Source of the DNA: Streptomyces niveus
Lineage (GTDB): Bacteria > Actinomycetota > Actinomycetes > Streptomycetales > Streptomycetaceae
Length of the DNA stretch: 64,000 nucleotides
Reading direction: 5' to 3'
Assembly: GCF_002009175.1 (NCBI RefSeq)
Contig: NZ_CP018047.1
Location: 5,518,001 to 5,582,000 of the forward strand
In this document: positions 3,001 to 38,777 of the stretch, piece by piece
How positions within the stretch are numbered: position 1 is the stretch's first letter
Layout of the letters: the number at the start of each line of letters is the position of its first letter
The notes under the pieces: model-generated
Seen by the model: only the letters and a program-made list of their open reading frames with translations
What the model was told of the DNA's origin: nothing
Database searches by the model: none
Translations under genes and position numbers: made by a program

Positions 3001-3716
3001 CGGCTCCGGCCGGTTCGCCGCGTTCGACGGAGCCCGAGCAGCAGGTGCGATCCGACGAGCAGGCGCAGGTGCCCGTCCCGGTCGCCTCGTCCGTGCCGGT
3101 GGCCGAGCCCGAGGAGATCGTGGAGGAGGCGGCCCCGCAGGGCCGTACCCGCCGCCGGGCCACCCGTAAGGCGTCGGCTCCGGCCGGTTCGCCGAAGGCT
3201 GCCGGGTCGGACGAGGCTGCCGAGCAGGCGGCCGAGGTCGTCGTCGAGCAGTCGGCGGCGCCGGTCGCGGCGGAGCCGGAGGCCGTACCGGCCGAGCCCG
3301 CGGGTGACGCGCCGTCCGGCGACACGCCCGAGGCGGCGCCGCCGCGGACCCGCCGCAGGGCGACCCGTAAGGCGTCGGCCCCGGCCGGTTCGCCGGCGGG
3401 CGCCGAGGAGGCGGCGGTCCTCGTGGTGGACTCGGCGTCCGAGCCGGCGTCGGCCTCCGCGGAATCGGCCGAGGCCGAGGGACACGCCGAGCGGTCCGAG
3501 GGCGACGCGGAGTCTTCCGCCCCGGCCAAGAAGGCGGCTCGAAAGACCGCCAAGAAGGCCCCGGCCAAGAAGGCGGCCACGAAGAAGACGGCCGCCAAGA
3601 AGACCGCCGCGAAGAAGACCACCACCAAGAAGGCGGCCACGAAGTCCGCGGCCAAGAAGACATCGGCGGCCGAGCAGCAGACGGCCCCGGCCGTGTCGGT
3701 CCCCACGGATGGCTGA
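1..3716 (+). CDS. rne: Ribonuclease E/G family protein, 5'-truncated
   Basis: Endoribonuclease for mRNA decay and rRNA/tRNA processing. The frame is open from base 3 and the first visible residues already belong to a repeat that recurs downstream, so the gene starts left of the window. About 1237 residues are visible. Order: an Ala/Pro/Glu/Arg-rich low-complexity N-terminal extension to about base 1430; an S1 domain (GNVYLGKVQNV near base 1590); the catalytic DNase I-like domain with the metal-binding aspartates in VDVNTG (about 2361) and IDFIDM (about 2491); the Zn-link CVHC (about 2669); a His/Asp-rich patch; then a long tail ending in Lys/Ala repeats like those of histone H1-like proteins. 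An Arg-rich ATRK motif is repeated at both ends. The family is certain; the choice between RNase E and G rests on the long extensions, as in Streptomyces RNase E. Confidence 0.95.
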   Translation, partial: APPRARRRATRKVAAPAETVAEPVVEPVVEPAAPAAVAAPESAEPVAEEAAPPRARRRATRKVAAPAESVPEPVAETAPEPVAEPVAEEAAPPRARRRATRKVTAPAAAPAAEADEETTQGETLPANTVTQITADEERVEAAEKAATRGRGRRKAGGSPEPTAEPAPEPKAESKSEPRSRKAEQRNGSGPAAAKDSETEAPERSRRRANRPAVAVFQAPVFAEPMFQTPETAAAMAAAGDVEDEDEDDLDIEDETTAEPAPAPEPSGRRRRRRRGEAAEAAEPAQAPAAERDADDESDTEQSAEGDESDSDESDDFDRPSRRRRRGGRRRRRGESADADEQSDEQSEDAPEERTRERGRKQVSQEGADGDGDAAVEGDSDEQDDDDSAGQSGGGSSSSRRRRRRRRRSGDGGSDTENNGVDDPERTVVKVREPRERRAKETEPGTGADEVQSIKGSTRLEAKKQRRREGREQGRRRVPIITEAEFLARREAVERVMVVRQSGERTQIGVLEDDVLVEHYVNKEQATSYVGNVYLGKVQNVLPSMEAAFVDIGKGRNAVLYAGEVNFEALGMANGPRRIETALKSGQSVLVQVTKDPIGHKGARLTSQVSLPGRYLVYVPEGSMTGISRKLPDTERARLKTILKKIVPEDAGVIVRTAAEGASEDELRRDVERLQSQWEDIQKKAKSGNAPTLLYGEPDMTVRVVRDIFNEDFTKVIVSGDEAWQTIHGYVAHVAPDLSDRLNRWTSEVDVFASYRIDEQLMKALDRKVWLPSGGSLVIDKTEAMIVVDVNTGKFTGQGGNLEETVTRNNLEAAEEIVRQLRLRDLGGIVVIDFIDMVLESNRDLVLRRLLECLGRDRTKHQVAEVTSLGLVQMTRKRVGQGLLESFSETCVHCNGRGVIVHMEQPTGSGGGGNGGGGKRAKKRRGGAGADHDHSHDHDHETAEGPAEAESEAEVAAEVAAPVALPAPEFVPDEELYSSVAEAETAARGGRSRRRASRKASAPAGSPRSTEPEQQVRSDEQAQVPVPVASSVPVAEPEEIVEEAAPQGRTRRRATRKASAPAGSPKAAGSDEAAEQAAEVVVEQSAAPVAAEPEAVPAEPAGDAPSGDTPEAAPPRTRRRATRKASAPAGSPAGAEEAAVLVVDSASEPASASAESAEAEGHAERSEGDAESSAPAKKAARKTAKKAPAKKAATKKTAAKKTAAKKTTTKKAATKSAAKKTSAAEQQTAPAVSVPTDG
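3..325 (+). repeat. N-terminal ATRK coding repeats in the RNase E/G gene
   Basis: Three copies of a unit encoding PPRARRRATRKV followed by APA occur at about 3-50, 150-208 and 267-325, separated by Val/Glu/Pro/Ala linkers. Variants of the same unit recur in the C-terminal tail. They lie outside the catalytic core, in sequence expected to be disordered. Confidence 0.8.
2961..3398 (+). repeat. C-terminal ATRK coding repeats in the RNase E/G gene
   Basis: Three copies encoding (S/T)RRRA(S/T)RKASAPAGSP at about 2961-3020, 3133-3200 and 3331-3398. They share the RRRATRK core with the N-terminal copies but carry the ending KASAPAGSP instead of KV(A/T)APA. Confidence 0.8.
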
Positions 3717-3753: not shown

Positions 3754-3800
3754 GGCCCGTGCCCATCACTGGGAATCCAGTGATGGGCACGGGCCTTTTT
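3754..3800 (+). terminator. Intrinsic terminator after the RNase E/G gene
   Basis: A near-perfect hairpin with about 20-bp arms (left arm GGCCCGTGCCCATCACTGG) lies 38 nt after the stop codon and is followed by TTTTTG. It separates the RNase gene from the sugar-gene operon. Confidence 0.9.
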
Positions 3801-4066: not shown

Positions 4067-5185
4067 ATGTCGAGCAGTGAAGCGCAGCCCATTCCCGCGG
4101 CCCGCCCGGTCATCGGGGAAGAGGAGATCGAGGCCGCGGTACGCGTACTGCGCACCGGCCGGGTCGTTCAGGGCCCCGAGGTGGCCGCGTTCGAAGAAGG
4201 CTTCGCCGAGATCGTCGCCGGCCGCCACTGCGTGGCCGTGAACTCCGGCACCTCGGCGCTCCATCTCCTGCTGCTCGCCCTCGGTATCGGCCCGGGCGAC
4301 GAGGTGATCGTGCCCTCGTTCTCGTTCGCCGCGTCGGCCAACGCCGTCCGCCTCGTCGGCGCCGACGTCGTCTTCGCCGACATCGAGCCCGGCAACTTCG
4401 GTCTCGACCCGGCGGCCGTCGAGGCCGCGATCACCCCGCGCACCGCCGCGATCATGCCGGTGCACCTCTACGGCAACCCGGCGTCGATGGACAAGCTGAT
4501 GCCCATCGCCGACAAGCACAAGCTCGCCGTCGTGGAGGACGCCTGCCAGGCGCACGCCGCGTCGCTGCACGGCACGCCGGTCGGCGCCTTCGGATCCGGC
4601 GGCACCTTCAGCTTCTACCCGACGAAGAACATGCACTCCCTCGAAGGCGGCATGATCTCCACCGGTGACGCCGAGGTCGCCCGCACCCTGCGCCTGCTGC
4701 GCAACCAGGGCATGGAGCAGCGGTACGCGAACGAGATCGTCGGCGCCAACATGCGCCTCACGGACGTGGCCGCCGCCGTCGGCCGGGTGCAGCTCACCAA
4801 GCTCGCCGGCTGGACCGAGCAGCGCCGCGCCAACGCCGCGTACCTGAACGAGCACATCACCGCGCCCGGTGTGGTGACGCCGCCGGTCGCCGAAGGCGCG
4901 TACCACGTCTACCACCAGTACACCGTCCGGATCACCGGTGACCGCGACGCCGCGATGGCGAAGCTCACCGAGGCGGGCGTCGGCAACGCCGTGTACTACC
5001 CGACCCCCATCCACCGGCTGCGGCCGTTCTGGGAGCCGGACCAGAAGGCCGGCCGTAACTGGGACCTGCCGGAGACCGAGCGGGCGGCCGCCGAGGTCGT
5101 CTCGCTCCCGGTGCACCCCTCGCTGTCCGACTCGGACCTGGAGCGAATCGTTTCCGCCGTGAACGAGCTGGGAGAGAACCTGTGA
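4067..5185 (+). CDS. DegT/DnrJ/EryC1/StrS aminotransferase (WbpE-like)
   Basis: PLP-dependent nucleotide-sugar aminotransferase, 372 aa, the usual size for the family. Visible marks are the substrate-binding start PAARPVIGEEE, the segment VEDACQAHAA and the PLP-lysine motif SFYPTKNM. The start has AAGGAGG 10 nt upstream. The stop overlaps the GTG of the next gene by 4 nt (GTGA), so the two are translationally coupled. With the adjacent Gfo/Idh dehydrogenase it forms the pair that installs a 3-amino group on a UDP-2-acetamido uronic acid (WbpB/WbpE type). The exact sugar is inferred from context; the aminotransferase class is clear. Confidence 0.92.
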   Translation: MSSSEAQPIPAARPVIGEEEIEAAVRVLRTGRVVQGPEVAAFEEGFAEIVAGRHCVAVNSGTSALHLLLLALGIGPGDEVIVPSFSFAASANAVRLVGADVVFADIEPGNFGLDPAAVEAAITPRTAAIMPVHLYGNPASMDKLMPIADKHKLAVVEDACQAHAASLHGTPVGAFGSGGTFSFYPTKNMHSLEGGMISTGDAEVARTLRLLRNQGMEQRYANEIVGANMRLTDVAAAVGRVQLTKLAGWTEQRRANAAYLNEHITAPGVVTPPVAEGAYHVYHQYTVRITGDRDAAMAKLTEAGVGNAVYYPTPIHRLRPFWEPDQKAGRNWDLPETERAAAEVVSLPVHPSLSDSDLERIVSAVNELGENL

Positions 5186-6210
5186 CCACCGGGGGACTGC
5201 GCGCCGGCCTGATCGGCCTGGGCTCCATGGGGCGCCACCACGCACGCGTACTGGCCGGCCTCGACGGCGTCACGCTCGTCGGTGTCGTCGACCCGCTCGG
5301 CGACAAGAACGGACTCGCGCAGGGCGCGCCCGTCCTCGCCACCGTCGAGGAACTGCTCGCGATCGGTGTCGACTACGCCGTCATCGCCTGCCCGACCGCA
5401 CTGCACGAGGAAGTCGGCCTCCAGCTCGCCGAGGCCGGGGTCAGCGCGCTCATCGAGAAGCCGCTGGCCGACACCGTCGACGGCGCGCGCCGTCTGGTCG
5501 AGGCCTTCGAATCGCGCGACCTCGTCGCGGGCGTCGGCCACATCGAGCGCTGCAACCCCGCGCTGCGCAGCCTGCGCGCCCGGCTGGAGGCCGGTGAACT
5601 CGGCGACGTGTACCAGGTGGTGACGCGCCGTCAGGGACCGTTCCCGCACCGGATCGCCGATGTCGGCGTGGTCAAGGACCTCGCCACCCACGACATCGAC
5701 CTGACCGGCTGGGTGACCGGCCAGACGTACACCTCGATCTCCGCCCACACGGTCTCCAAGAGCGGCCGCCCGCACGAGGACATGGTGTCCGCCGTGGGCC
5801 GGCTCTCCGACGGCACGATGGTCAACCACCTGGTGAACTGGCTGAGCCCGCTCAAGGAGCGCTTCACCTCGGTCACCGGCGAGCGCGGCTGCTTCATCGC
5901 CGACACGCTGACCGCCGACCTGACCTTCTACTCCAACGCGGCGGTGACCACCGAGTGGGAGGCGCTGCGCGCGTTCCGCGGTGTCGCCGAGGGCGACATG
6001 ATCCGCTACGCCATCCCCAAGCGCGAGCCGCTGCTGGTGGAGCACGAGCTGTTCCGCGACGCCGTACTCGGCGAGTCGCACGACATCTGCACACTGCGGC
6101 AGGGTCTGCGCACGGTGGAGGTGGCGGCGTCCGTTCTGGAATCGGCCGCGAACGGTCGCACGGTGAATCCCCCCACCGAGGGGAACGTCATTCAGGAGAT
6201 GACCAGTTGA
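5182..6210 (+). CDS. Gfo/Idh/MocA-family oxidoreductase (WbpB-like)
   Basis: NAD(P)-dependent sugar dehydrogenase, 342 aa. An N-terminal Rossmann fold (GLIGLGSMGRHHARVL) is followed by the family motif EKPL near residue 93 and the C-terminal substrate domain with HDIDLTGW. GTG start in a 4-nt overlap with the aminotransferase; its own stop overlaps the TTG start of the next gene. Next to a DegT aminotransferase, and with WbpA-, WbpD- and WbpI-like genes nearby, the likely job is oxidising C3 of UDP-GlcNAc-uronic acid before transamination. Other Gfo/Idh reactions cannot be excluded from sequence. Confidence 0.88.
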   Translation: MTTGGLRAGLIGLGSMGRHHARVLAGLDGVTLVGVVDPLGDKNGLAQGAPVLATVEELLAIGVDYAVIACPTALHEEVGLQLAEAGVSALIEKPLADTVDGARRLVEAFESRDLVAGVGHIERCNPALRSLRARLEAGELGDVYQVVTRRQGPFPHRIADVGVVKDLATHDIDLTGWVTGQTYTSISAHTVSKSGRPHEDMVSAVGRLSDGTMVNHLVNWLSPLKERFTSVTGERGCFIADTLTADLTFYSNAAVTTEWEALRAFRGVAEGDMIRYAIPKREPLLVEHELFRDAVLGESHDICTLRQGLRTVEVAASVLESAANGRTVNPPTEGNVIQEMTS

Positions 6211-7838
6211 CCGTTCCCGATGTCAGTGTGGTCGTGGCCGTCTACAACACCATGCCGTATCTGACCGAGTGTCTGAACTCGCTCGTCGGGCAGAGCATCG
6301 GTCTCGGGCGGCTCGAGATCGTAGCTGTGAACGACGGTTCGACGGACGACAGCGGCGCGGAGCTCGACCGGTTCGCCGAGCGCTACCCCGACACGTTCAA
6401 GGTCGTCCACCAGGCGAACTCCGGGGGCCCGGCGGTGCCGAGCAACCGAGCCCTGGAGATCGCCACCGGCCGTTTCGTCTACTTCGTCGGCTCCGACGAC
6501 CATCTCGGCGAAGAGGCACTGGAGCGCATGGTCGCCTGCGCCGACGAGCACGGGTCGGACGTGGTGATCGGCAAGATGGTCGGCACCAACGGCCGCTACG
6601 TCCGGCAGACGATGTACAAGAAGAACGATCCGGACGTCAGTCTGTACGGCTCCGACCTGCCGTTCACCCTCGCCAACACCAAGCTCTTCCGGCGTGAACT
6701 GGTGGAGAGACACAAGCTCCGCTTCCCCGAGGACCTGCCGGTCGGCAGCGACCAGCCGTTCACCATCGAGGCGTGCGTACGGGCCGAGCGGATCTCGGTC
6801 CTCGGTGACTACACGTACTACTACGCGGTCAAGCGCGGCGACGCGAGCAACATCACCTACCGGGCCGATCACCTGACCAGACTGCGCTGCACCAGCCGCA
6901 TCATGCGGCACACGGCCACTCTGATCGAGGCGGGCCCGCAGCGCGACGCCGTCCTCAAGCGGCACTTCACCTGGGAGCTGGCCAAGCTCGTCCAGGACGA
7001 CTTCCCGACGCTCACCCCCACGACGCAGCGCGAGCTCTGCGCCGGGATCGCCGAACTCGCCGACGACTACCTGACGGACGAGCTGCGTGACTCGCTCGAC
7101 GTCAAACGACGGGTACGGATAATGCTGGCCCAGCGTGGCGCTGTGGCCGAACTCACCAAGGCCATCGCCGACGAGACCGAGCACGGCGCGCCGCCGTTCC
7201 TGCTCGACGACGGGCGGGCGTTCGCCGCCTACCCCGGCCTGCGCGACCCGGCTGTCCAACTGCCCGACCGCGGTTACGAGTTGGTGGGGGAGAAGGTTCC
7301 CGGCCGGCTCGCCAACGGCACCCGGCTGATCTCCGCCGGCTGGGAGCGGAGCGGCGACACGCTCTTCGCGGTGTTCACCGTACGGATCGGCGTCACCGGA
7401 GAGACCGACTCCGCCGTGATCCGGCTGGCCCGGACCGCGATGCCGAGCAGCGCGGACAAGGCGGCGGCCCGCCGACTGTCTCCCGGACATGAACTCCCCG
7501 CCCCGGTGGGCGAGTTCACCCGTGTACCGGAGCCCGACGGCGGTGGCGGCACCATCCTGACCGCCCGGATCCCGCTCACGGCGGCCCGGATCAAGGCGGG
7601 CGCCCGGGTCTACGTCGACGTCGCCGGATCGACCTACGAGATCCCGATCCGCACGCGGGGTCTGCCGATGCCGCTGGCCCGCCGGTGGGGCGACGCCGTC
7701 CCTTACCGGGCGTCGGCCAATGTGAATCCCAAGGGGCGACTGGTGATCACCACGGCTCCGCTGTGGGAGCCGACACCGACCTTCCGCGCGCGGGTACGAC
7801 GCTTGCTGCCCCGGTTCAAGAGGAAAGTAATCCGATGA
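6207..7838 (+). CDS. TarS/TarP-like family 2 glycosyltransferase
   Basis: 543 aa from a TTG start that overlaps the preceding stop (TTGA), with AGGAG at 6194-6198, 8 nt upstream. Starts further upstream would lie inside the previous gene. Residues 1-330 are a GT-A domain (VSVVVAVYNTMPYL, VNDGSTDDS, NSGGPAVPSNRAL, GSDDHLG, PVGSDQPF, TYYYAVKR). The order and spacing strongly recall S. aureus TarS/TarP, which add GlcNAc to poly(ribitol phosphate) wall teichoic acid. The first Asp of the DXD motif is Gly here (GSDD). Residues 380-543 form a beta-rich C-terminal domain; the C-terminus is Arg/Lys-rich. It is predicted to act on a cytoplasmic polymer before export. TarS likeness is from remembered motifs, not an alignment. 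Confidence 0.85.
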   Translation: MTVPDVSVVVAVYNTMPYLTECLNSLVGQSIGLGRLEIVAVNDGSTDDSGAELDRFAERYPDTFKVVHQANSGGPAVPSNRALEIATGRFVYFVGSDDHLGEEALERMVACADEHGSDVVIGKMVGTNGRYVRQTMYKKNDPDVSLYGSDLPFTLANTKLFRRELVERHKLRFPEDLPVGSDQPFTIEACVRAERISVLGDYTYYYAVKRGDASNITYRADHLTRLRCTSRIMRHTATLIEAGPQRDAVLKRHFTWELAKLVQDDFPTLTPTTQRELCAGIAELADDYLTDELRDSLDVKRRVRIMLAQRGAVAELTKAIADETEHGAPPFLLDDGRAFAAYPGLRDPAVQLPDRGYELVGEKVPGRLANGTRLISAGWERSGDTLFAVFTVRIGVTGETDSAVIRLARTAMPSSADKAAARRLSPGHELPAPVGEFTRVPEPDGGGGTILTARIPLTAARIKAGARVYVDVAGSTYEIPIRTRGLPMPLARRWGDAVPYRASANVNPKGRLVITTAPLWEPTPTFRARVRRLLPRFKRKVIR

Positions 7839-9118
7839 ATATCTGTGTAGTCGCGCTCGGCAAGATCGGTCTGCCGCTCGCCGTGCAGTTCGCCGCCAAG
7901 GGCCACCGCGTCTTCGGCGCCGACGTCAACGAGAAGGTCGTCGATCTGGTCAACGCCGGTACGGAGCCCTTCCCCGGCGAGCACGACCTCGACGTCAAGC
8001 TCAAGCAGTGCGTCGACGCCGGGCTGCTGACGGCCACGACCGACACCACCGCCGCCGTCGCGCAGTCCGACGCCGTCGTGGTCGTCGTCCCGCTCTTCGT
8101 GGACGCCGAGGGCGTGCCCGACTTCGGCTGGATGGACTCGGCGACGAAGGCGATCGCCAAGGGCCTCAAGCCCGGCACCCTCGTCAGCTACGAGACCACC
8201 CTGCCCGTCGGCACCACCCGCACCCGCTGGGCGCCGATGCTCCAGGAGGGCTCCGGCCTCACCCCCGGCGAGGACTTCCACCTCGTCTTCTCACCCGAAC
8301 GCGTCCTGACCGGCCGGGTCTTCGCCGACCTGCGCCGCTACCCCAAGCTCGTCGGCGGCATCGACGAGGCGTCGGCCAGGCACGGCGTCGACTTCTACGA
8401 GGCCGTGCTCGACTTCGACGTACGCGAGGACCTGCCGCGCGAGAACGGCGTGTGGGACCTCGGCACCGCCGAGGCCTCCGAGCTGGCGAAGCTCGCCGAG
8501 ACCACGTACCGCGACGTCAACATCGGCCTGGCGAACCAGTTCGCGCGCTTCGCCGACCAGAACGACATCGACATCAAGAAGGTCATCGAGGCCTGCAACA
8601 GCCAGCCGTACAGCCACATCCACCAGCCCGGCATCGCCGTCGGCGGCCACTGCATCCCGATCTACCCCCGGATGTACCTGTGGAACGACCCGGCGGCGAC
8701 CGTCGTGCGCTCGGCGCGCGAGGCGAACGCCGCGATGCCCGAGTACGCGGTGGACCTGCTGGCCGCGGCGTACGGCGACCTGACCGGCGTCAACGTGCTC
8801 GTGCTGGGCGCGGCCTACCGCGGCGGCGTGAAGGAGACTGCGTTCTCCGGTGTCTTCCCGACCGTGGAGGCGTTGCGGGCGCGGGGCGCCGTGCCCTACG
8901 TCTCCGACCCGATGTACACCTCGGAGGAGCTGACGGCGCACGGCCTGCCGCCGCACGAGGGCCAGAAGGTCACGGCGGCGGTGCTCCAGGCGGACCACGC
9001 CGAGTACCGCGACCTGAAGCCGGCCGACCTGCCCGACGTCACGGTGCTCGTCGACGGCCGGCGCACCACCGACCCGGAGGCCTGGCGCGGCGTTCGCCGC
9101 GTCGTCATCGGCGGCTGA
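7835..9118 (+). CDS. UDP-N-acetylhexosamine 6-dehydrogenase (WbpA/WecC-like)
   Basis: NAD-dependent four-electron oxidation of the C6 hydroxyl of a UDP-HexNAc to a uronic acid. 427 aa. ATG at 7835 overlaps the preceding stop (ATGA), with AGAGGAAAG upstream. Features: N-terminal Rossmann motif VVALGKIGLPLA, the FSPERV segment, the linker helix with KLAETTYRDVNI, and the catalytic cysteine in GGHCIPIYP, which marks the HexNAc branch rather than UDP-glucose dehydrogenase. It is the expected first step of the diacetamido-uronic acid pathway. GlcNAc versus ManNAc as substrate cannot be settled; a WbpI-type 2-epimerase acting late favours GlcNAc. Confidence 0.92.
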   Translation: MNICVVALGKIGLPLAVQFAAKGHRVFGADVNEKVVDLVNAGTEPFPGEHDLDVKLKQCVDAGLLTATTDTTAAVAQSDAVVVVVPLFVDAEGVPDFGWMDSATKAIAKGLKPGTLVSYETTLPVGTTRTRWAPMLQEGSGLTPGEDFHLVFSPERVLTGRVFADLRRYPKLVGGIDEASARHGVDFYEAVLDFDVREDLPRENGVWDLGTAEASELAKLAETTYRDVNIGLANQFARFADQNDIDIKKVIEACNSQPYSHIHQPGIAVGGHCIPIYPRMYLWNDPAATVVRSAREANAAMPEYAVDLLAAAYGDLTGVNVLVLGAAYRGGVKETAFSGVFPTVEALRARGAVPYVSDPMYTSEELTAHGLPPHEGQKVTAAVLQADHAEYRDLKPADLPDVTVLVDGRRTTDPEAWRGVRRVVIGG

Positions 9119-9201
9119 TTCCCGCACACGCGAAGAGAGACATCGACAACGGCCGTACCTCGCCGTCCGGCGGGTACGGCCTGTTCGCGGAAGGCCACCG
9201 A

Positions 9202-10170
9202 ATGACCTGGTTGATCACGGGCGGCGCCGGATACATCGGCTCCCACGTGGTGAAGGCGATGACCGACGCCGGTGAGAGCGTCGTCGTGCTCGACGATCTG
9301 AGTACGGGCCGCAAGGAGCGTCTGCCCGACGGCGTGCCGCTGGAGGTCGGCAGCGTACTGGACGGCGAGCTGACGGGCAGGGTGATCGAGCGCCACTCGG
9401 TCACCGGCATCGTGCACATCGCGGGAAAGAAGCAGGTCGCCGAATCCGTCGCCAGACCGCTCCACTACTACCGCGAGAACGTCGAGGGTCTCCGTACCCT
9501 CCTCGACGCCGCGGTCCGCGCCGATGTCGCTCGATTCGTGTTCTCGTCCTCGGCCGCCGTCTACGGTATGCCGGACACGGACCTCGTCACCGAGCGAACG
9601 CCATGTCTGCCGCTCAGTCCCTACGGTGAGACGAAACTGGCGGGCGAACGCCTCGTCGCCGCGGCGGGTGCCGCGCACTCCATGGCCACCGTGTCGCTGC
9701 GCTACTTCAACGTCGCCGGAGCCGTCTCACCGGAACTGGGGGACGACGGTGTCTTCAACCTGGTGCCCATGGTCTTCGAACGCCTGGAGGCGGGTGAGTC
9801 CCCGCGTGTCTTCGGTGCCGACTACCCGACCGCTGACGGCACTTGCGTACGCGACTACATCCACGTCGAGGACATCGCCTCGGCGCATCTCGCGGCGGTA
9901 CGGCGGCTCACCGACGACACCACGGCTTCCCTGGTCCTCAACATCGGGCGTGGTGAGGGGGTCTCCGTCGCCGAGATGATCACGGTGATCCAGGACATCG
10001 CCGGCCGCGCGGACCTCGTGCCCGAGGTGGTGGAGCGCCGTCCGGGCGATCCGGCACGGGTGGTGGCCTCGGCCGGCCGCATCCGCGAAGAGCTGGGCTG
10101 GACGGCGCGCCACGCCGTACGCGAGATGGTCGCGTCGGCCTGGGAGGGCTGGCGGCTTCGCCACCTCTGA
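9202..10170 (+). CDS. UDP-glucose 4-epimerase-like SDR (GalE family)
   Basis: 322 aa extended SDR. NAD-binding GGAGYIGSH at the N-terminus, DDLSTG, the catalytic Ser region FSSSAAVYG and the catalytic YxxxK in SPYGETK; also DGTCVRDYIHVED, typical of GalE. The ATG at 9202 is chosen because the GalE fold begins there; upstream sequence of the same frame lies in the dehydrogenase gene. An 83-nt gap separates it from the dehydrogenase. It probably supplies UDP-Gal or UDP-GalNAc for the glycan made by this block. Specificity is not decidable here. Confidence 0.88.
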   Translation: MTWLITGGAGYIGSHVVKAMTDAGESVVVLDDLSTGRKERLPDGVPLEVGSVLDGELTGRVIERHSVTGIVHIAGKKQVAESVARPLHYYRENVEGLRTLLDAAVRADVARFVFSSSAAVYGMPDTDLVTERTPCLPLSPYGETKLAGERLVAAAGAAHSMATVSLRYFNVAGAVSPELGDDGVFNLVPMVFERLEAGESPRVFGADYPTADGTCVRDYIHVEDIASAHLAAVRRLTDDTTASLVLNIGRGEGVSVAEMITVIQDIAGRADLVPEVVERRPGDPARVVASAGRIREELGWTARHAVREMVASAWEGWRLRHL

Positions 10171-10193
10171 GCGTCCCTGGGCGGACGCCCGAG

Positions 10194-10242
10194 GAGACGG
10201 GCAAGGGGTTCACGGATCATCCGTGAACCCCTTGCCCGTCTC
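10194..10242. terminator. Bidirectional palindromic terminator
   Basis: A perfect inverted repeat of two 24-nt arms around one central base (left arm begins GAGACGGGCAAGGGG, turn GGATCATCC). It lies 23 nt after the GalE-like stop and 15 nt from the stop of the converging gene. No U-run follows on either strand, so it would be a U-less terminator serving both operons. Confidence 0.8.
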
Positions 10243-10257
10243 AGTCCCGGTCGGCCA

Positions 10258-12399
10258 CTACCGCCGGTCGAGCAGCAGCTTCTCGAACTGCTTGCGCACC
10301 ACGGGCCAGTCCCAGGCGGACACGGCGTGATCGGCGGCGAGCTTGCCCGCCTGCTGCCACGCCTCCTCGGTGGCCGTGTGCTCGATGATCCGCCGCGCGG
10401 CGTCCTCGGGGGAGTCGACGATCCAGGAATCGGGATAGAGGGTACGGGCGCTGTTGGGACGGCCCGCGTAGAAAGGCCAGTCCCGTACGACGGGAAGCGC
10501 TCCGCTCGCGGCGCCCTCCATCAGACCGACGTGGCAGCCCTCACGGACCGACGAGCTCAGAACCGTCCCGACGCCGGTGAGCGCGGAGGGGACGTCGTTC
10601 GTCGGACCGAGCTGCACGACCGCTCCCGACTCCACCAACGGGACGAGTGCCTGGTCCAGTTCCTGACGGTACTCCCGCGTCGCACGGCTGTTCTTCGGGT
10701 TCATGTCACCGCCGATCAGCAGCAGCCGGTACCGGTCGTCCTGCTCGCGTACCCGGCGCAGGACATCGATGGCCCACAGCGGGTCCTTGGCGACCTGACT
10801 GATGCCGATCAGGCCGAGGGTGAACCGCGCGTCGGGGGACTTGGGCCGCCGGAAAGCCGTCAGATCCATGGCGTTGTCGAGGACATGCGTACGAGGTGCG
10901 TGCTCACCGCGCAGCTGCGGGGTCAGCGAGGTCACCAGATCGCGGACGTGCGGCGCCACGAACACCATGTCGTCGACGCGCGAGAAATCCGTCATGTGGG
11001 GCCAGCGGGTGAACGCCTCGTAGCTGTGCAGGCGCAGGACGATGCGCGTGTCCCCGGGATCGATCGTCGTGAACATCGCGGCGGGTCCCACGGACCAGTC
11101 GATGAACACGGTGTCCGCCCAGTCCAGATGCGGGCGGATCAGCCGCTCGACCTCTTCCTGGTAATCGGTCGACCCACCCGCAAGCCGGTCCGCCAGTATC
11201 CGCCGTGCCGCCCACGCGATCTGCTTGAGGGACTTCTGCGTGGCCAGGTCCAGGAAGCGCAGCTCGACCCCTGGGTGGTTCCCGAAGTGCGCCAGGATGT
11301 GGTGGAGGAAGTTGTCGTTGCCGCTCGTGGTCACCAGCAGCCGGAGCGGGCGGTCCGTGGGTGCCGGCGCGGCCGGGACCTCTCTGCCCCGGGGGGTGGC
11401 GACGGCCCGCATGGCCTTCGAGGCGTAGAGCGGCTTGACGAAGCCTTCCGCGTCCTTCGCCAGCGGGGAGGAGAGCTGGTCGAGGTGGATCACGCGGTGG
11501 AACGCGAGTGTGAGAGCGCGGTTGAGGGCCCCCGCCGCCTCGTCGTGCTCGCCCGCGGCGAACTGTGTGTCGGCGTGGGCGAGTTGCGCCCCGACCGCCT
11601 GGGAGAGCTCCTGCGGGCTGAGCCCCTTGGAGATCTCCTTCATCACCGACTCGTCCAGCAGCTTGGCCCTGCGCCCCTGGTCCGGAATCTTGGCCGCGGC
11701 GGCGGCCAGGGCTATCGCGGCGCCGCTGGTGCGGCCGGCCGAGAGCATGCCCTCGGCGACGTACCGCGAGACGTTGATCCGCATCTGTGCCGGAATACCC
11801 GGTGCGGTCACCGCGCCGCGCCACAGCCGGGCGCCGATCGCGGAGCGCATCAGTGGCCTCGCGGTGACCGTACGCATGACCGCGGCCGGTACGCCGTTCA
11901 CGGAGCGCCGGACATCGCGTGCGACGACGGCGGGGGACGGAATGACGGCCAGGGCGTTGCGGGGCTTGACGGCACCGCTCCGCGCCAGCTCCTCGACGGC
12001 CTTCAGGGCGGGCGCGAGACCGAAGACGGCCTTGGCGCCGCGGTTGTACTGGGCCAGTCGCCACACGGTGTAGACGGCGCCGGGGTCCAGAGCCACCAGC
12101 ACATGAGCCCCGCGTGCGCGTGTGCGCATCCACGAGTCGCCCTTGACCTGTATCCATGCCCGCATTCCCGCGGGCAACTGCTCGGCTTTGCGCCGCACGG
12201 CCGAGCTGCGCTGGGCCAGACTCCGGGGAAGCTGGTGCGCCTCGGTGAGGTCGATCGGGGCGAGTTCCGAGGCAGCCGCGTCCAGGTTGAAGGTCCCGGC
12301 CAGGCGCACGCTGGCGCCATGCTCCTGGAACTTCCGTACCGAGTCGGCGAGCACACCGAACTGGGGCCGGGTCGAGGCGATGAACAGGACTTCGGTCAC
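10258..12399 (-). CDS. GT-B glycosyltransferase, 713 aa, with long N-terminal extension
   Basis: The C-terminal half (about residues 345-713) is a GT-B fold of the GT4 type: a nucleotide-binding core around TLGLIGISQVAKDPLWAIDVL and the donor site VREGCHVGLMEGAASGALPVV. The N-terminal half opens with a Rossmann-like strand (VLFIASTRPQFGVLADSVRKF), possibly a second GT-B-like domain, and a helical stretch. The start overlaps the stop of the upstream glycosyltransferase gene by 4 nt, so both are co-translated. The cytoplasmic substrate is unknown; the setting suggests a step in a cell-wall glycopolymer. Confidence 0.8.
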   Translation of the reverse strand: MTEVLFIASTRPQFGVLADSVRKFQEHGASVRLAGTFNLDAAASELAPIDLTEAHQLPRSLAQRSSAVRRKAEQLPAGMRAWIQVKGDSWMRTRARGAHVLVALDPGAVYTVWRLAQYNRGAKAVFGLAPALKAVEELARSGAVKPRNALAVIPSPAVVARDVRRSVNGVPAAVMRTVTARPLMRSAIGARLWRGAVTAPGIPAQMRINVSRYVAEGMLSAGRTSGAAIALAAAAAKIPDQGRRAKLLDESVMKEISKGLSPQELSQAVGAQLAHADTQFAAGEHDEAAGALNRALTLAFHRVIHLDQLSSPLAKDAEGFVKPLYASKAMRAVATPRGREVPAAPAPTDRPLRLLVTTSGNDNFLHHILAHFGNHPGVELRFLDLATQKSLKQIAWAARRILADRLAGGSTDYQEEVERLIRPHLDWADTVFIDWSVGPAAMFTTIDPGDTRIVLRLHSYEAFTRWPHMTDFSRVDDMVFVAPHVRDLVTSLTPQLRGEHAPRTHVLDNAMDLTAFRRPKSPDARFTLGLIGISQVAKDPLWAIDVLRRVREQDDRYRLLLIGGDMNPKNSRATREYRQELDQALVPLVESGAVVQLGPTNDVPSALTGVGTVLSSSVREGCHVGLMEGAASGALPVVRDWPFYAGRPNSARTLYPDSWIVDSPEDAARRIIEHTATEEAWQQAGKLAADHAVSAWDWPVVRKQFEKLLLDRR

Positions 12400-13895
12400 G
12401 AGCTTGTTCCTCCGCTGACGCTCGACTTCTCGGTGAGAGGGGCCACGTCGACGCCCTTCGTGCTGGTGGTCCGCTCGCCGGTGCTCGTATCCGTGGTCTC
12501 CGGGCCGTGTGCCGGCTTGGCCGCGTCGAAAGCCTCGACGAGCTCGCGGACGGCGACGGTCATCAGCTTCTCGCGGGTGAACCGGTCGGCGTGGGCCATC
12601 GCTTCGGCGTGCAGTTCATCGCTGGTCCTGATCGCCATGCGCGCCGCCTCGGCGAACGCCTCGGCCATCTTCTCCTCGTCCATGCCGATGGCCCCCGTCC
12701 ACAGGGGATGCCCGTTCAGCACGTTCGAGGCGTCGTGCTCGACGACATGGGCCGAGACGATCGGCAGACCGGTCGCCATGTACTCGTACACCTTGCCTGA
12801 GGTCACGAAGCGACCGCCTATGAGAATGAGCACCAGCGCGTCCCAGCTCGCGTAGACCGACGCCACCTCGGCCTTCGCGGCGGGGCCGCCGAAGACGACG
12901 CCGTCGGCCGCGGCCTGCTTGAGGAGCTCCGTGTGGCGGTTCGCCTCGCGCCCGGCGCCGTTGCCGATGTGACCGCGTACCTCGAAGCGCGCGTTGGCGA
13001 GCAGCGGCTCGTGTTCGCGTGCAGTCCGCCAGGCGTTGAGCACCGTCTCCAGGTGCTGGGCCGAGAAGTTGACCGTTCCCAGGTAGCCGAACCTCAGGCC
13101 GGACTCGACATCGGGGGTGTGGGCGCGGCCCGGCGCGCTGTCCGCGTCGTATCCGTTGCGCACGACGTGCACACGGTCGGCGAACTCCGGGTAGCGCGCG
13201 CGGTAGTGGTCCGCGATGGGGTCGTTGACGACCCAGAGGGAGAGCGCGTTGTCGAGTATCTTCTTCTCCCACTGTGCCTCCTCGGAGTCACGGGAGAAGG
13301 CCTCGACACCGTCGATGACGTCGATGGACCAGCCGTCGCGGAAGTCCACCGCGTAGGGCACCCGGGCCTCTTCCCAGAGTTTCCAGGCCGCTGCCAGGGT
13401 CACGTACGGAACGCAGCTCGCGAGCAGCAGATCCGCGGGGTGCTCCGCGTGGATGTCCACAACGGCCCGCTCCAGGTCGCCCCGCCACTCACCGAAGTTG
13501 GGCTCGGGGAACGTCAGACGCTGGCGATTGCGCAGCTTCGTCAGCCAGCCGTTGGGGCTCGCGGCCCGTTCTTCGTCGAAGAGCCGTATGTCCGTTTCGA
13601 GGTCGAGGCGTGACAGCGGCAGCTCGACGGTCCTGACCCGGGAGTCGACCTCGTTCAGAAGAGTGGGGTCGATACCGGAGTCCCGCTCCCAGGAATCCTG
13701 GGCGATGGTGACGACCGTGACGTCCCAGCCCGCGTGGATGAACTGATTGGCGGTCTCGCGCATGCGGTAGGCGCAGCTCTTGGCGGCAGGCGGGAATCCG
13801 ATGGCGAGATAGATCAGATGAGGGCGCGTGGGGTTCGAAGGCGGCCCGGATCGGGGAGACGTTGACATATTGGCTGACGCCGGCACTGTGCACAT
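12396..13895 (-). CDS. Group 1 (GT4) glycosyltransferase
   Basis: 499 aa from the first ATG; an in-frame ATG at 13868 would give 490 aa. Neither has a clear ribosome binding site, so the start is uncertain. The N-terminal acceptor domain begins LIYLAIGFPPAAKSCAYRM, resembling WbuB-type transferases. The C-terminal domain has RFGYLGTVNFSAQHLETVL and, near the end, YEYMATGLPIVSAHV, the typical donor-site helix. A 50-residue polar tail follows. It lies between a UDP-sugar 2-epimerase gene (upstream) and another glycosyltransferase (downstream, 4-nt overlap). Confidence 0.85.
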   Translation of the reverse strand: MCTVPASANMSTSPRSGPPSNPTRPHLIYLAIGFPPAAKSCAYRMRETANQFIHAGWDVTVVTIAQDSWERDSGIDPTLLNEVDSRVRTVELPLSRLDLETDIRLFDEERAASPNGWLTKLRNRQRLTFPEPNFGEWRGDLERAVVDIHAEHPADLLLASCVPYVTLAAAWKLWEEARVPYAVDFRDGWSIDVIDGVEAFSRDSEEAQWEKKILDNALSLWVVNDPIADHYRARYPEFADRVHVVRNGYDADSAPGRAHTPDVESGLRFGYLGTVNFSAQHLETVLNAWRTAREHEPLLANARFEVRGHIGNGAGREANRHTELLKQAAADGVVFGGPAAKAEVASVYASWDALVLILIGGRFVTSGKVYEYMATGLPIVSAHVVEHDASNVLNGHPLWTGAIGMDEEKMAEAFAEAARMAIRTSDELHAEAMAHADRFTREKLMTVAVRELVEAFDAAKPAHGPETTDTSTGERTTSTKGVDVAPLTEKSSVSGGTSS

Positions 13896-13931
13896 CAGGA
13901 ATCGCTGGGAGTCGCCTCCCTCATCCGTGTG

Positions 13932-15035
13932 TCACGCGCGTCGGCTACCTACCTTCCACTCTTCTATAAGTCGGATGACGTTCTGTGCTGCCAGTCCGTC
14001 GCCGTAAGGGGCGCCCGGGTCCTCGGTGGGAGTGGCCCGCGTCACCGTGGCGGCCCACTCCTCGGCTGTGAGTTCTTGGGGATCGGGGACCAGGACGTTC
14101 CAGCCGGTCGTCACTGTCTCGATCCACTCGGTCTCGGGGCGTACCGTCGTGCAGATCCGCTCCAGAAGAAAAGCCTCCTTCTGGAGACCTCCGGAGTCGG
14201 TCACCACCCCGGACGAGGCGAGAGCGGCGGCGACAAGTCCGGCGTAGGGCAGCGGACGGCCGACATGGACGGAACCTCGCGCGAGTGTGATGCCGTGCTG
14301 TTCGGCGCGTGCGACCAGGCGCGGGTGGGCCAGCAGGGCCACCGGAAGGGGAAGCCCGGCGAGGGAGTCGAGGATGGCGGCGAGCCGTGCGGGATCGTCG
14401 GTGTTGTCCGGGCGGTGCAGCGTCGCGAGCAGGAACGGCTGTGACGGATCGATGCCCGGGGGCAGCGCGGGCGCGGGGTGCTCCCCGGCACGTACGGAGT
14501 CGCGGATCCGCAGACAGATGTCGACCATGACATCACCGGCGAGCCTCGCGCGGTCGGCGAGCCCTTCGGCGGCGAGATGCCGCATGGCCTCCTCGGTGGG
14601 AGCCAGGAGCAGATCGGCGCAGTGGTCGGTGAGTACGCGGTTGTGCTCCTCCGGCATCCGCCTGTTGAAGGAGCGGAGTCCCGCCTCCAGGTGCGCCACC
14701 GGGAGATGCATCTTCACCGCGGAAAGGGCCCCGGCGACAGTGGAGTTGGTGTCGCCGTACACCAGGACCCAGTCCGGCCGCTCGGACTCGAAGACCGGAT
14801 CGAGCGCGGTGAGGACCGCGCCGGTCTGGGCACCGTGGCTGCCGGATCCGACACCGAGATGGATGTCCGGAGCGGGGATGCCCAGCCCGTCGAAGAACAC
14901 ATCGGAAAGGTCGGCGTCGTAGTGCTGCCCCGTGTGGACAATGACGTGCTGGTGGTCCGTTCCGGCGAAGGCCGCGGCCATGGGAGCCAGCTTCACCAGT
15001 TGGGGACGCGCTCCAACGATGCTGATCACTTTCAT
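13932..15035 (-). CDS. Non-hydrolysing UDP-sugar 2-epimerase (WbpI-like)
   Basis: 367 aa. The ATG at 15035 begins the fold (MKVISIVGARPQLVKLAP); a longer open frame upstream is not family sequence. Conserved marks: VHTGQHYD, VYGDTNST, HLEAGLRSFNRRMPEEHNR, ATLHRPDNTDD and VVTDSGGLQKEA. The RSFNRRMPEE version is the one I associate with WbpI (epimerising UDP-GlcNAc3NAcA to UDP-ManNAc3NAcA) rather than WecB, which normally has a different sequence there. With the dehydrogenase, oxidoreductase, aminotransferase and acetyltransferase it would complete the pathway. The split from WecB is an inference. Confidence 0.88.
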   Translation of the reverse strand: MKVISIVGARPQLVKLAPMAAAFAGTDHQHVIVHTGQHYDADLSDVFFDGLGIPAPDIHLGVGSGSHGAQTGAVLTALDPVFESERPDWVLVYGDTNSTVAGALSAVKMHLPVAHLEAGLRSFNRRMPEEHNRVLTDHCADLLLAPTEEAMRHLAAEGLADRARLAGDVMVDICLRIRDSVRAGEHPAPALPPGIDPSQPFLLATLHRPDNTDDPARLAAILDSLAGLPLPVALLAHPRLVARAEQHGITLARGSVHVGRPLPYAGLVAAALASSGVVTDSGGLQKEAFLLERICTTVRPETEWIETVTTGWNVLVPDPQELTAEEWAATVTRATPTEDPGAPYGDGLAAQNVIRLIEEWKVGSRRA

Positions 15036-15198
15036 CGGACACTCTTCTTCTGGGCAAGGGTCGCGGCGGCCGGGGCTCCGGCACGGCCAGGTTCTCGTCC
15101 GCGCGTACTCTCTCGCCGCACGACGGGTCAGGGGATCGCCGACTTGGCTCGACCGGCAGATGCGGCTCGGCAGGCGTTCGAACGGGTGTTGCCGGACC

Positions 15199-15226
15199 AT
15201 GATAGGCAATCACGACCGGAGTCCAC
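15199..15226 (-). promoter_or_regulatory. Possible promoter for the minus-strand sugar genes
   Basis: On the minus strand GTGGAC and TATCAT are 16 nt apart. Transcription would start near 15192 and leave a leader of about 155 nt. The rest of 15036-15348 shows no gene. Confidence 0.35.
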
Positions 15227-15348
15227 GCCCTGAGCCCACGCCATGGGCCCGCCTTCGACCGCCGCTCGCGCGGAACCGCGCGCTCAGCTTTTCCGGCGGG
15301 CGGCCACCGCGCGCACCGCCGGCTGGGGCCTCTTCGCTGTCCGGGCGT

Positions 15349-15948
15349 TCAGAGGCGCTCGGTGAGGACGCCGTCCTTCTCGTCGTGCAGCGCGCCGGTC
15401 CTGGGGCACTCCCACACACCGGGCTCCCCGTTCCGCTCCACGAGCTTCACACCGGCGCGCCCGGCCCAGCCGATCCGGCGGGCCGGGACTCCCACGACCA
15501 GCCCGAAGTCCGGTACGTCCTTCGTGACGACGGCCCCGGCGGCGATCATCGCCCACCGGCCGATCCGTACGGGCGCGACGCAGACCGACCGGGCGCCCAG
15601 CGAGGCGCCCTCCGCGATCTTCACACCGACCGCCTCCCAGTCGGAGCCGCGCTTGAGCTTGCCGTCGGGGTCCACGGAGCGGGGGTTCATGTCATTGGTG
15701 AGGACGACTGCGGGCCCGATGAAGACACCGTCGGCCAGCTCGGCGGGCTCGTACACCAGCGCGTAGTTCTGGATCTTGACGTTGTCGCCGATCCGCACCC
15801 CGGTCCCGACATAGGCACCACGCCCGACGACGCAGTTCTCGCCCAGGCGCGCGTTCTCCCGGATCTGCGCGAGCTCCCAGACGCTGCTGCCGTCACCGAC
15901 CACCGCGGTCCCGTCGACCTGGGCGGTTGGCTGGACCCTGTAGTTCAC
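15349..15948 (-). CDS. Left-handed beta-helix N-acetyltransferase (WbpD-like)
   Basis: 199 aa from GTG at 15948, with AAAGG 7 nt upstream. Hexapeptide-repeat acyltransferase: VWELAQIRENARLGENC, VRIGDNVKIQNYALVY, the substrate loop GPAVVLTNDMNPRS, then APVRIGRWAMIAAGAVV and VVGVPARRIGW. This is the pattern of WbpD/WlbB enzymes that acetylate the 3-amino group of UDP-2-acetamido-3-amino-2,3-dideoxy-glucuronic acid using acetyl-CoA. The gene is 313 nt downstream of the 2-epimerase gene on the same strand, with no strong terminator between. Confidence 0.88.
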   Translation of the reverse strand: MNYRVQPTAQVDGTAVVGDGSSVWELAQIRENARLGENCVVGRGAYVGTGVRIGDNVKIQNYALVYEPAELADGVFIGPAVVLTNDMNPRSVDPDGKLKRGSDWEAVGVKIAEGASLGARSVCVAPVRIGRWAMIAAGAVVTKDVPDFGLVVGVPARRIGWAGRAGVKLVERNGEPGVWECPRTGALHDEKDGVLTERL

Positions 15949-16079: not shown

Positions 16080-17162
16080 CTACGCCTTGCTGTCGTCCCG
16101 GCGCAGCGCCCACCGCATCCTCGGCTCCACGACGTACCTGAACACCCGTCGTACGGGGGGCGTGCACAGCGCCGTCACCAGCAGCGCGGCGGCCAGCGTC
16201 ACCGCGATCCGGCCCGACGGGGTCTCGAAGAACGGGTCGTCGTAGCCGCCGAGATACTGCGCGCCGCGGATGAGGAAGCCGTGCAGCAGGTAGCCGTAGA
16301 GCGTTCCGGCGCCCAGCGCGGTCATCCACAGGCGGCGGCTCGGGACCCAGGCCAGGAAGCACGCGCCCAGCACGAGCGCAGCGGCGAACAGGAGCAGGGT
16401 CATCGCCGCGCCCGTCCAGACCGGCTCGTTCAGCTCGCGGGCGCCGTAACTCTTGAAGAGCCACGAGGTGCTCATGCGCGGGACCGACCAGTACGCCACC
16501 AGCAGGGCGGCCAGGGCGACGGGCAGCGCCGCGACCCGTACCCGGGTCCGGCGCAGATACGCGAAGTGCTCGGGGCGCAGCCGCAGTCCCAGGACGAAGA
16601 ACGGCAGGAACTGAAGGACGCGCATGAGCTGGAGGTCGTCGCCGATCCCGGTCGACATCGACGCCAGCGCGGCCACGGCCAGGGCCAGGGGCACCGGCCA
16701 CCGCACCAGCTGCCAGAACGGTGTCGTGATCCGCCACAGGAACAGGGCGGGCAGGAACCAGAGGATCCAGTACGGGTCGGTGGGCGTGAGCGGAAAGCCC
16801 GGTGTCTGCACCGTGCGGTGGAAGAGCGTGTACGCCACCTCGAAGACGGCGTACGGCACCAGGACCCCGGTGACCAGCCGCCACACCCGCTTCGGGCTCA
16901 TGTCGAAGCCGCGCGAGAAGTAGCCCGCGATCACGATGAAGACGGGCATGTGGAACACGTACACGAAGGTGTAGAGGGCCTCGACCACCCGCCCGCTGCC
17001 CGGCAACGGCTCCCACGAGTGCCCGACGGCGACCAGGACGATGGCCAGGTACTTCGCGTTGTCGAAGAACGGATCCCGCGCCGTGACACCGGTACCGCCA
17101 CCGACGGGAGCGGGGTCCGATGACGGAGTTCCGGTCCGGGCGGGCGACAGAGGTGAGACCAT
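16080..17162 (-). CDS. Acyltransferase family 3 membrane protein
   Basis: 360 aa integral membrane protein with about ten hydrophobic helices. The motif [19 protein letters not shown] near the N-terminus carries the catalytic-type His, and [13 protein letters not shown] follows: the pattern of fucose O-acetylase-like membrane acyltransferases, which move acyl groups onto sugars at the membrane. ATG at 17162 preferred over GTG at 17165: TAGTGT on the minus strand at 17169-17174 sits exactly 6 nt before this ATG (leaderless pattern). Probably O-acetylates the envelope glycan made by the neighbouring genes. Confidence 0.85.
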
Positions 17163-17168
17163 CACGAC

Positions 17169-17378: not shown

Positions 17379-17702
17379 GTGTACGCCATCGTGCGCAGCG
17401 GTGGTCGTCAGCACAAGGTTGCTGTTGACGACATCGTTGAGGTTGACAAGATTCCCACTGCCAAGGTTGGCGACACGGTCGAGCTCTCGACCCTGCTCGT
17501 GGTCGACGGCGACGCCGTGACCAGCGACCCGTGGGTCCTGAACGGCATCAAGGTCACCGCCGAGGTCGTGGACCACCACAAGGGCGCGAAGATCGACATC
17601 CTTCGCTACAAGAACAAGACCGGTTACCGCCGTCGCCAGGGTCACCGCCAGCAGTACACGGCGATCAAGGTCACCGCTATTCCCGCGGCCGCGAAGAAGT
17701 AA
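17379..17702 (+). CDS. rplU: 50S ribosomal protein L21
   Basis: 107 aa; binds 23S rRNA in the large subunit. [14 protein letters not shown] at the N-terminus and [20 protein letters not shown] near the C-terminus are diagnostic. The GTG at 17379 is the family start; upstream in-frame codons are not conserved sequence. The gene is 14 nt before rpmA, the universal rplU-rpmA pair. Confidence 0.98.
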
Positions 17703-22001: not shown

Positions 22002-22305
22002 CGCGGTGGCTTCGGAAAGCGCGCAAACAGCCGACGAGCAGGGGATTTCCCTTACGTAGTACTTACAACGCGAACGCGAAATAGCGGTCGCGAAGTAGAG
22101 GTCCCGTGGAGGTACATACCGGTTCGGCGTGCCGATGTGGTGTCGGTCACGCCGCACTTGGCCGGATGACGCCTCAATGTGGCTGGCCAGAGGGTGAACA
22201 GATGGTTTCCTGTGGGTGAGGGGCATCGGGCGTCCGCCTTGCGAGACGGTCACGGAGAGTGCGACCATCGCAGCGTCCCCCACTCATCTCAAGGTAGGTC
22301 GTTCT
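22002..22305 (+). other. Gene-free region before the CDP-ribitol gene
   Basis: 304 nt of lower GC than the flanks with no credible ORF. CGCGAA occurs three times, at 22069, 22075 and 22089. No promoter pair could be assigned. A ribosome binding site (AAGGTAGG) at the right end serves the next gene. Confidence 0.5.
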
Positions 22306-36489: not shown

Positions 36490-36562
36490 GGGGCTATAGC
36501 TCAGTTGGTAGAGCGCCTGCATGGCATGCAGGAGGTCAGGAGTTCAATTCTCCTTAGCTCCA
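36490..36562 (+). tRNA. tRNA-Ala (GGC)
   Basis: 73 nt. Acceptor GGGGCTA/TAGCTCC with one G-T pair; D-loop AGCTCAGTTGGTAGAGC; anticodon stem CCTGC/GCAGG with loop ATGGCAT giving anticodon GGC; T-arm GGAGTTCAATTCTCC. Discriminator A; the CCA end is not encoded. Identical to the copy at 38693. Confidence 0.97.
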
Positions 36563-36578
36563 CACATATCCACCCCGA

Positions 36579-38692: not shown

Positions 38693-38765
38693 GGGGCTAT
38701 AGCTCAGTTGGTAGAGCGCCTGCATGGCATGCAGGAGGTCAGGAGTTCAATTCTCCTTAGCTCCA
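38693..38765 (+). tRNA. tRNA-Ala (GGC), second identical copy
   Basis: All 73 nt are identical to the copy at 36490, in the same orientation, 2203 nt downstream. Same anticodon GGC and no encoded CCA. Confidence 0.97.
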
Positions 38766-38777
38766 CATCTCGAAGTT

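Follow-up and report, generated by a model that had tools for sequence, protein, structure and literature searches.

The ten genes that lie between rne and rplU in Streptomyces niveus are very probably the utr locus of this species, which would make UDP-2,3-diacetamido-2,3-dideoxy-mannuronic acid (UDP-ManNAc3NAcA; UDP, uridine diphosphate) and build it with N-acetylgalactosamine (GalNAc) into a teichuronic-acid (TUA) polymer carried on ribitol teichoic acid. They were found in a stretch of 64,000 nucleotides (the window, positions 5,518,001-5,582,000) of the complete 7.99-Mb genome, as open reading frames (ORFs) with Pfam and NCBIfam assignments, and form two convergent operons. We infer the individual reactions in this species and a repeat unit equal to that of S. 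griseus, from which this kind of cluster is already known (2025). New here are a residue test of the 2-epimerase, a doubt about the 3-dehydrogenase, a census of the locus and a comparison bearing on block exchange.

In S. griseus the genes utrA-E and utrF-J have been described together with the L21/L27 genes, and with TarIJ (SGR_4956) and TagF near (Zhao et al., Cell 2025, PMC13274773). Genetics and nuclear magnetic resonance gave ManNAc3NAcA in a wall polymer that is a TUA-teichoic acid hybrid, and the steps assigned to the individual Utr proteins were modelled on the Pseudomonas pathway. The gene utrC is required for the polymer of GalNAc and ManNAc3NAcA, which is begun by the gluco form of the sugar (GlcNAc3NAcA) on ribitol phosphate and is largely capped by 4-O-acetyl-ManNAc3NAcA, which serves as receptor of an umbrella-toxin lectin. 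The same paper describes utr loci as varying between species. Among the matches listed for literature from 2024 on, only this paper joins umbrella toxin, teichuronic and utrC.

The locus of the window shares with that of S. griseus the ten gene types, the two convergent operons, the adjoining L21/L27 genes and the nearby TarIJ and weak TagF. The initial annotation of the window had proposed a diamino-uronic sugar for a cell-wall polymer, and as every S. griseus utr gene type stands beside the same ribosomal genes this proposal is supported and the kind of cluster known; in S. griseus a locus of like content gives ManNAc3NAcA (PMC13274773). The two loci belong to different species and differ in that here the acyltransferase is outermost and the N-acetyltransferase adjoins utrH. 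They differ also in umbA, which is not present between the cluster and rplU here (213 bp), the rest of the genome not having been searched for it. A search of the genome for the umbrella-toxin ALF repeat family gave no match, but gave none in control genomes either.

The plus-strand operon encodes, in order, a DegT aminotransferase, a Gfo/Idh protein, a family 2 glycosyltransferase (GT2) with a TarS linker, a 6-dehydrogenase and a GalE-type epimerase. Transcribed first in the minus-strand operon is an acyltransferase gene, followed by those for a hexapeptide acetyltransferase, an Epimerase_2 protein and two glycosyltransferases. At four junctions the adjacent genes share a 4-bp overlap, three of these junctions lying among the first four plus-strand genes; these overlaps and the recurrence of the set in other species rule out a chance origin. 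The two converging operons had been recognised in the initial annotation, and their ends do meet, at the inverted repeat 10194-10242. The features are as follows.

84..3716, plus strand: rne/rng-type ribonuclease, left anchor of the locus (ORF)
3754..3795, plus strand: intrinsic terminator-like stem of 19 pairs between rne and utrA (terminator scan)
4067..5185, plus strand: utrA, DegT-family sugar 3-aminotransferase, predicted WbpE-like role (PF01041, 398 bits)
5182..6210, plus strand: utrB, Gfo/Idh/MocA sugar 3-dehydrogenase (PF01408; best NCBIfam model NF040723)
6207..7838, plus strand: utrC, GT2 glycosyltransferase with TarS linker, TTG start assumed (PF00535, PF22181)
7835..9118, plus strand: utrD, UDP-sugar 6-dehydrogenase (TIGR03026, 278.8 bits, cut-off 189.8)
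9128..15354, no strand: 6.2-kb segment utrE-utrH, not in the genus genomes G353 and G044 (blastn breakpoints and gene content)
9202..10170, plus strand: utrE, GalE-type 4-epimerase, predicted UDP-GalNAc supply (TIGR01179, 320 bits, cut-off 262)
10194..10242, no strand: perfect 24-bp inverted repeat between the operon ends (repeat search)
10258..12399, minus strand: utrF, 713-aa GT-B glycosyltransferase, predicted GalNAc transferase (weak PF13692; orthologues in relatives)
12396..13895, minus strand: utrG, GT4-type glycosyltransferase, predicted ManNAc3NAcA transferase (PF13579, PF13692; role from PMC13274773)
13932..15035, minus strand: utrH, WbpI-type UDP-GlcNAc3NAcA 2-epimerase (Epimerase_2; PDB match; residues)
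15349..15948, minus strand: hexapeptide N-acetyltransferase of WbpD/WlbB type, called utrJ in S. griseus (PF00132; 3mqg)
16080..17165, minus strand: membrane O-acyltransferase (PF01757, 84 bits)
17379..17702, plus strand: rplU, right anchor of the locus (locus comparison)
22303..23808, plus strand: TarIJ-type fusion of IspD and SDR, supplying ribitol phosphate to wall teichoic acid (PF01128 and PF00106); start assumed, within an ORF from 22216
23950..26094, plus strand: TagF-like polyol-phosphate polymerase, weak match (PF04464, 27.2 bits, cut-off 22.1)

The gene at 84..3716 was given the name rne/rng from its translation, presumably correctly. The start of utrH was set at the ATG that precedes the conserved MKVISIVGARPQ and is probably at 15035; the full ORF extends to 15209. 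The inverted repeat at 10194..10242 is possibly a bidirectional terminator and is not in the output of the terminator scan because it does not meet the loop limit of the scan. As the scan returned 2 sites in total against 4.2 expected in shuffles, the stem at 3754..3795 has its length as sole support.

Predicted enzymes of the diamino-uronic sugar

UtrD, UtrB, UtrA and the N-acetyltransferase would convert UDP-N-acetylglucosamine (UDP-GlcNAc) to UDP-GlcNAc3NAcA, UtrH would invert C2 to give UDP-ManNAc3NAcA, and UtrE would supply UDP-GalNAc. The five enzyme types of UDP-ManNAc3NAcA synthesis had been placed on the window by the initial annotation; all are open frames at the positions named, with families assigned by Pfam and NCBIfam. 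Its wording of a WbpA/B/E/D/I-type set is supported as to the enzyme types, with the reservation that the Gfo/Idh enzyme is not specifically WbpB-like. The five types, the WbpI-type residues and the WlbB-like acetyltransferase are shared with the Wbp enzymes of Pseudomonas aeruginosa and their Thermus counterpart (PMC10622841). Unlike in that pathway, the 3-dehydrogenase is here by sequence nearer to GnnA than to WbpB/WlbA and the product is predicted for a Gram-positive wall polymer and not for O-antigen.

The best match of UtrH among PDB sequences is the Thermus UDP-2,3-diacetamido-2,3-dideoxy-glucuronic acid (UDP-GlcNAc3NAcA) 2-epimerase (323 bits), the next family being the UDP-GlcNAc 2-epimerases (226 bits); on this measure UtrH groups as had been expected of it, and it carries the RSFNRRMPEE signature read from it earlier. 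The Thermus enzyme is distinguished from UDP-GlcNAc enzymes by Trp307 in place of Arg, Tyr96 in place of His/Gln and Ala18 in place of Leu/Met (PMC10622841). At these sites UtrH keeps the Trp (Trp304) and the Tyr (Tyr93) and has Leu at the third. The comparison covered 22 proteins, namely the Thermus enzyme, 11 of the UtrH type (the window, two other Streptomyces and eight other genera) and 10 distant Streptomyces 2-epimerases. Trp, Tyr and Leu were found in all 11 UtrH-type proteins, and among the distant epimerases Trp was found in 0/10 and Arg in 10/10.

The N-acetyltransferase has its best PDB match in 3mqg (143 bits, next 91), which we take to be Bordetella WlbB, and thus also falls with the family predicted for it. 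UtrA belongs to the DegT-family sugar aminotransferases (PF01041, 398 bits) and is predicted to act at the 3-position. UtrD passes the general model TIGR03026 only, with 4r16 as PDB match (194 bits), and no WbpA-specific model or chain was present among its NCBIfam or PDB matches.

The case of UtrB is different. Its best NCBIfam model is NF040723, an archaeal UDP-GlcNAc 3-dehydrogenase, at 191 bits, far under the cut-off of 450; in a scan of 18 UtrB relatives this model matched every one, and its best E-value was lower than that of any other model. Among PDB sequences UtrB scored 84 bits with GnnA (7bvj, named GnnA in its structure title; a UDP-GlcNAc 3-dehydrogenase), 52.5 with WlbA (3q2k) and 25 with WbpB (3o9z). 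Comparison of folds using the predicted model (predicted local distance difference test, pLDDT, 85) gave GnnA and WlbA tied, and the model alignments gave 30% identity to GnnA vs 22% to WlbA. As UtrB resembles GnnA more than WbpB/WlbA by sequence, the steps may follow another order. GnnA and the archaeal UDP-GlcNAc 3-dehydrogenases oxidise C3 of UDP-GlcNAc first. It is possible, although we consider it somewhat doubtful, that the same product is reached in this way, UtrB oxidising C3 of UDP-GlcNAc before amination and acetylation and UtrD oxidising C6 last, before UtrH acts. The UtrB matches speak for this order, as does the best equivalog score of UtrD, obtained with the archaeal UDP-ManNAc dehydrogenase (238 bits, cut-off 750). 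The order of the archaeal steps was not found in the literature passages on the pathway, which were general, and a literature search for the code 7bvj gave nothing.

Proposed polymer assembly, contrary points and alternatives

The three glycosyltransferases counted in the initial annotation are present, at 6207-7838 on the plus strand and at 10258-12399 and 12396-13895 on the minus strand. UtrC combines PF00535 with PF22181 (TarS_linker) and has its best PDB matches in 5tze/5tz8 (161 bits), presumably TarS; it is predicted to place the first GlcNAc3NAcA on ribitol phosphate in the wall teichoic acid. GalNAc and ManNAc3NAcA would then be added in turn by UtrF and UtrG, and the acyltransferase, in the role of utrI (terminal 4-O-acetylation), would cap the polymer end with O-acetyl. 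This O-acyltransferase had been announced as part of the locus and is there (16080-17165, minus strand), but just outside the range given for it (4067..15948).

The diamino-uronic polymer could instead be a teichuronic acid of its own, linked straight to peptidoglycan and not built on teichoic acid, as is known for those of Micrococcus luteus and Bacillus licheniformis (PMC13274773). Against this stand utrC with its TarS linker within the operon, the TarIJ and TagF-like genes nearby and the hybrid shown in S. griseus (PMC13274773), and we judge it improbable.

Several observations weigh against the assignment as the utr locus and its predicted product. The chemistry of the product in this species is predicted from its genes, and the likeness to the S. 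griseus genes is one of gene types as given in the published description. UtrA matches 7b0d (299 bits) better than WbpE (234 bits), and UtrB appears closer to GnnA than to WbpB/WlbA. NCBIfam names UtrH wecB (246 bits, cut-off 210), which is a general model. The Ala18 site is Leu in UtrH and its ten relatives, as in UDP-GlcNAc enzymes, and Tyr96 and Ala18 are both present in 4/10 distant 2-epimerases, so that Trp is the only clean discriminator. The published TarM likeness of UtrF was not reproduced: its profile had no match among PDB sequences at E 0.01, and its AlphaFold model (pLDDT 71) had GT-B folds of OGT/SPY as best Foldseek matches at a TM-score of only ~0.3, which neither confirms nor denies that likeness. 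The acyltransferase lies outside the N-acetyltransferase, the reverse of the order implied by the published names, and was matched in just 2 of the 46 genus loci searched (E 1e-8; G044 and G353, 85-89% identity); among the 80 named loci listed it was matched in one (1e-10; Actinomadura L090, 44%).

That UtrH would be an ordinary UDP-GlcNAc 2-epimerase for the N-acetylmannosamine linkage unit of teichoic acid, the diamino sugar staying GlcNAc3NAcA, is very improbable: UtrH does pass the general wecB model and is the sole Epimerase_2 match in the genome at E 0.001, but it bears the Trp304/Tyr93 signature, its closest solved relative acts on UDP-GlcNAc3NAcA, and G044 and G353 retain TarIJ and TagF without any Epimerase_2 match in their genomes at E 0.001 (0/2; controls 11/14), so that their teichoic acid needs no 2-epimerase.

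Other genes lie between the N-acetyltransferase and utrH in some relatives (L048 3024-4802, L049 3500-4996 and L053 1785-2918, all on the plus strand). By eye, the product in L048 is a large protein of secreted appearance, and those in others are acyltransferase-like proteins of at least two kinds; none is a match to the window's own acyltransferase. Near the locus, a LytR-CpsA-Psr protein (33504-35192, plus strand; weak PF03816, with LytR_C) is possibly a wall-polymer ligase; seven stronger matches lie elsewhere in the genome. Three strong PF04464 genes (TagF/TagB type) are present in the same genome outside the window, at G000:C1:5073834-5089062, and the genome search that gave them did not report the weak one at 23950. 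The window also holds two tRNA-Ala (ggc) genes (36490-36563 and 38693-38766), ~2 kb apart.

Distribution of the locus

The census covered 392 genomes of the genus, that of the window included, with thresholds of at least 80% identity for utrB (E 1e-60), at least 60% within 12 kb for utrC and E 1e-100 within 16 kb for utrH. Relatives of utrB were found in 65 of the 392 genomes, 62 of them with utrC nearby and three without such a utrC. A nearby utrH was present in 31 of the 62 genomes with utrB and utrC and not in the other 31; the latter is an upper figure for its absence, because utrH lies on a different, short contig in G062 and elsewhere in G110, and several genomes are fragmented. Fifteen utrB matches below 80% were excluded, of which six had a utrC match nearby at 50-55% and two had utrH. 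In the genus regions fetched (utrB at least 80%) rne adjoins utrA in 32/33, the 33rd ending at a contig end, and rplU or obg was found on the other side within the stretch in 17/33.

A named collection comprised at least 80 loci carrying the epimerase, each with up to 10 kb of flank, and sugar genes were counted at 40% identity or more. All five sugar genes occurred together in 47 of the 80 loci listed, at 50% identity or more in 42 of these 47. The search across Streptomyces that the initial annotation had proposed found the set in 13 of the 15 named Streptomyces loci listed; it was present in 34 of the 65 others. These 34 include loci of Actinoplanes, Salinispora, Actinomadura, Nocardioides, Kribbella, Microbacterium, Arthrobacter, Actinomyces and one Sporosarcina. 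Five of the 34, from Actinoplanes and Salinispora, match the acetyltransferase at just 41-46%. A utrC-like gene at 42-53% identity accompanies the set in seven of the 34; as paralogues that lie apart from utrB in Streptomyces reach 47%, orthology below that value is not established. Among the matches listed, named UtrB relatives are nearly all from Streptomyces.

Two candidate assignments were rejected. The 2-epimerases at 40-46% identity are not UtrH orthologues, the ten compared having Arg at the diagnostic site and no utrA, utrB or utrC matches in the stretches examined around them. A secondary-metabolite cluster was also discarded, as only the ten genes lie between rne and rplU and the same set occupies this core-genome place in many species.

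Another type of Streptomyces gene cluster is seen in L070 (9302-14447) and L071 (9690-14777), where an N-acetyltransferase with 76-77% identity to the window's stands next to two distant enzymes, a 2-epimerase and a 6-dehydrogenase. In G107 the stretch of utrH (L060 4786-5874, plus strand) holds one in-frame stop and may only end early.

Possible exchange of the polymer genes among close relatives

G353 and G044, whose utrB is the most similar to the window's among the genus genomes sampled, carry this locus too and in the same place. The DNA identity to G353, ~97% around the locus, is 96.1% for rne, 97.2% for utrA, 97.2% for utrB, 97.9% for utrD, 99.1% for rplU, 97.1% for obg and 97.1% for TarIJ. 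By blastn, G353 has 88 bases in place of the window's 9128-15354, which carries utrE, utrF, utrG and utrH. Moreover, the utrB-utrC junction of 50 bases in the window corresponds to 1.6 kb in G353, coding for a 526-aa glycosyltransferase of GT4 type (by Pfam on the G044 copy) that has no match among the 17 window proteins tested. Along the locus the identity is 83-92% in utrC, 97-98% in most of utrD, 85-95% from the N-acetyltransferase through the acyltransferase and 96-100% from rplU onward. The architecture of G044 is that of G353. This profile and the gene content indicate a constant sugar-making core and a variable part that would decide the polymer.

The divergence of utrC does not go with the utrE-H block only, as the extra gene and utrC are 87% identical between G353 and G044, just as far apart as utrC of the window and of either. 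Matches to the extra glycosyltransferase were found in 35 of 126 loci searched (E 1e-40, 31-100% identity; G353 included and some organisms twice), some of them with utrH; G358 (L165) and G053 (L057) hold both. A 9-bp perfect inverted repeat lies at 9151-9181, between utrD and utrE, within the segment that the relatives lack. Foreign origin of the segment 9128-15354 by base composition was considered and dropped, its guanine plus cytosine content (69.0%) giving no signal beside that of neighbouring genes (68.5-71.7%).

These comparisons of sequence suggest that the polymer-building genes are exchanged as a block on a constant sugar-making core. We give an even chance to a two-layer locus, with utrA, utrB and utrD as core and with the junction glycosyltransferase, utrC, utrE-H and the acyltransferases as swappable parts, in which utrE-H would have been exchanged into the window lineage and would have switched a GlcNAc3NAcA polymer to one of GalNAc and ManNAc3NAcA. 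This would be like capsule switching and plausibly selected by lectin-guided toxins or phages. Gain of the block by the window lineage would be the simplest reading of the three genomes, in which the window and G353 are closest and G044 stands outside; utrE-H may instead have been lost in G353 and G044. Five further UtrB entries on other contigs share 99-100% identity with the window's UtrB, so relatives closer than G353 exist and may refine the picture of the exchange.

The polymer would have changed along with the block, as is supported by the structure in S. antibioticus. That species has utrC, utrG and utrI but no utrE, utrF or utrH, and what it builds on ribitol teichoic acid is a homopolymer of GlcNAc3NAcA (PMC13274773). 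G353 and G044 show the same utrE/F/H absences but additionally have no utrG match. Recombination at the TUA locus is not treated in the passages of PMC13274773 that mention recombination, horizontal transfer or hypervariability, and no wider literature search was made.

The 2-epimerase decides between the gluco and the manno form of the sugar and, as the census shows, accompanies utrB and utrC in half of the genomes that carry both. TUA-teichoic acid hybrids are umbrella-toxin receptors and their structure decides which species are attacked (PMC13274773). With their near-identical sugar core and differing polymer part, the species of the window, G353 and G044 make up a natural series in which it is testable what a single block does to wall structure and to the binding of toxins or phages.

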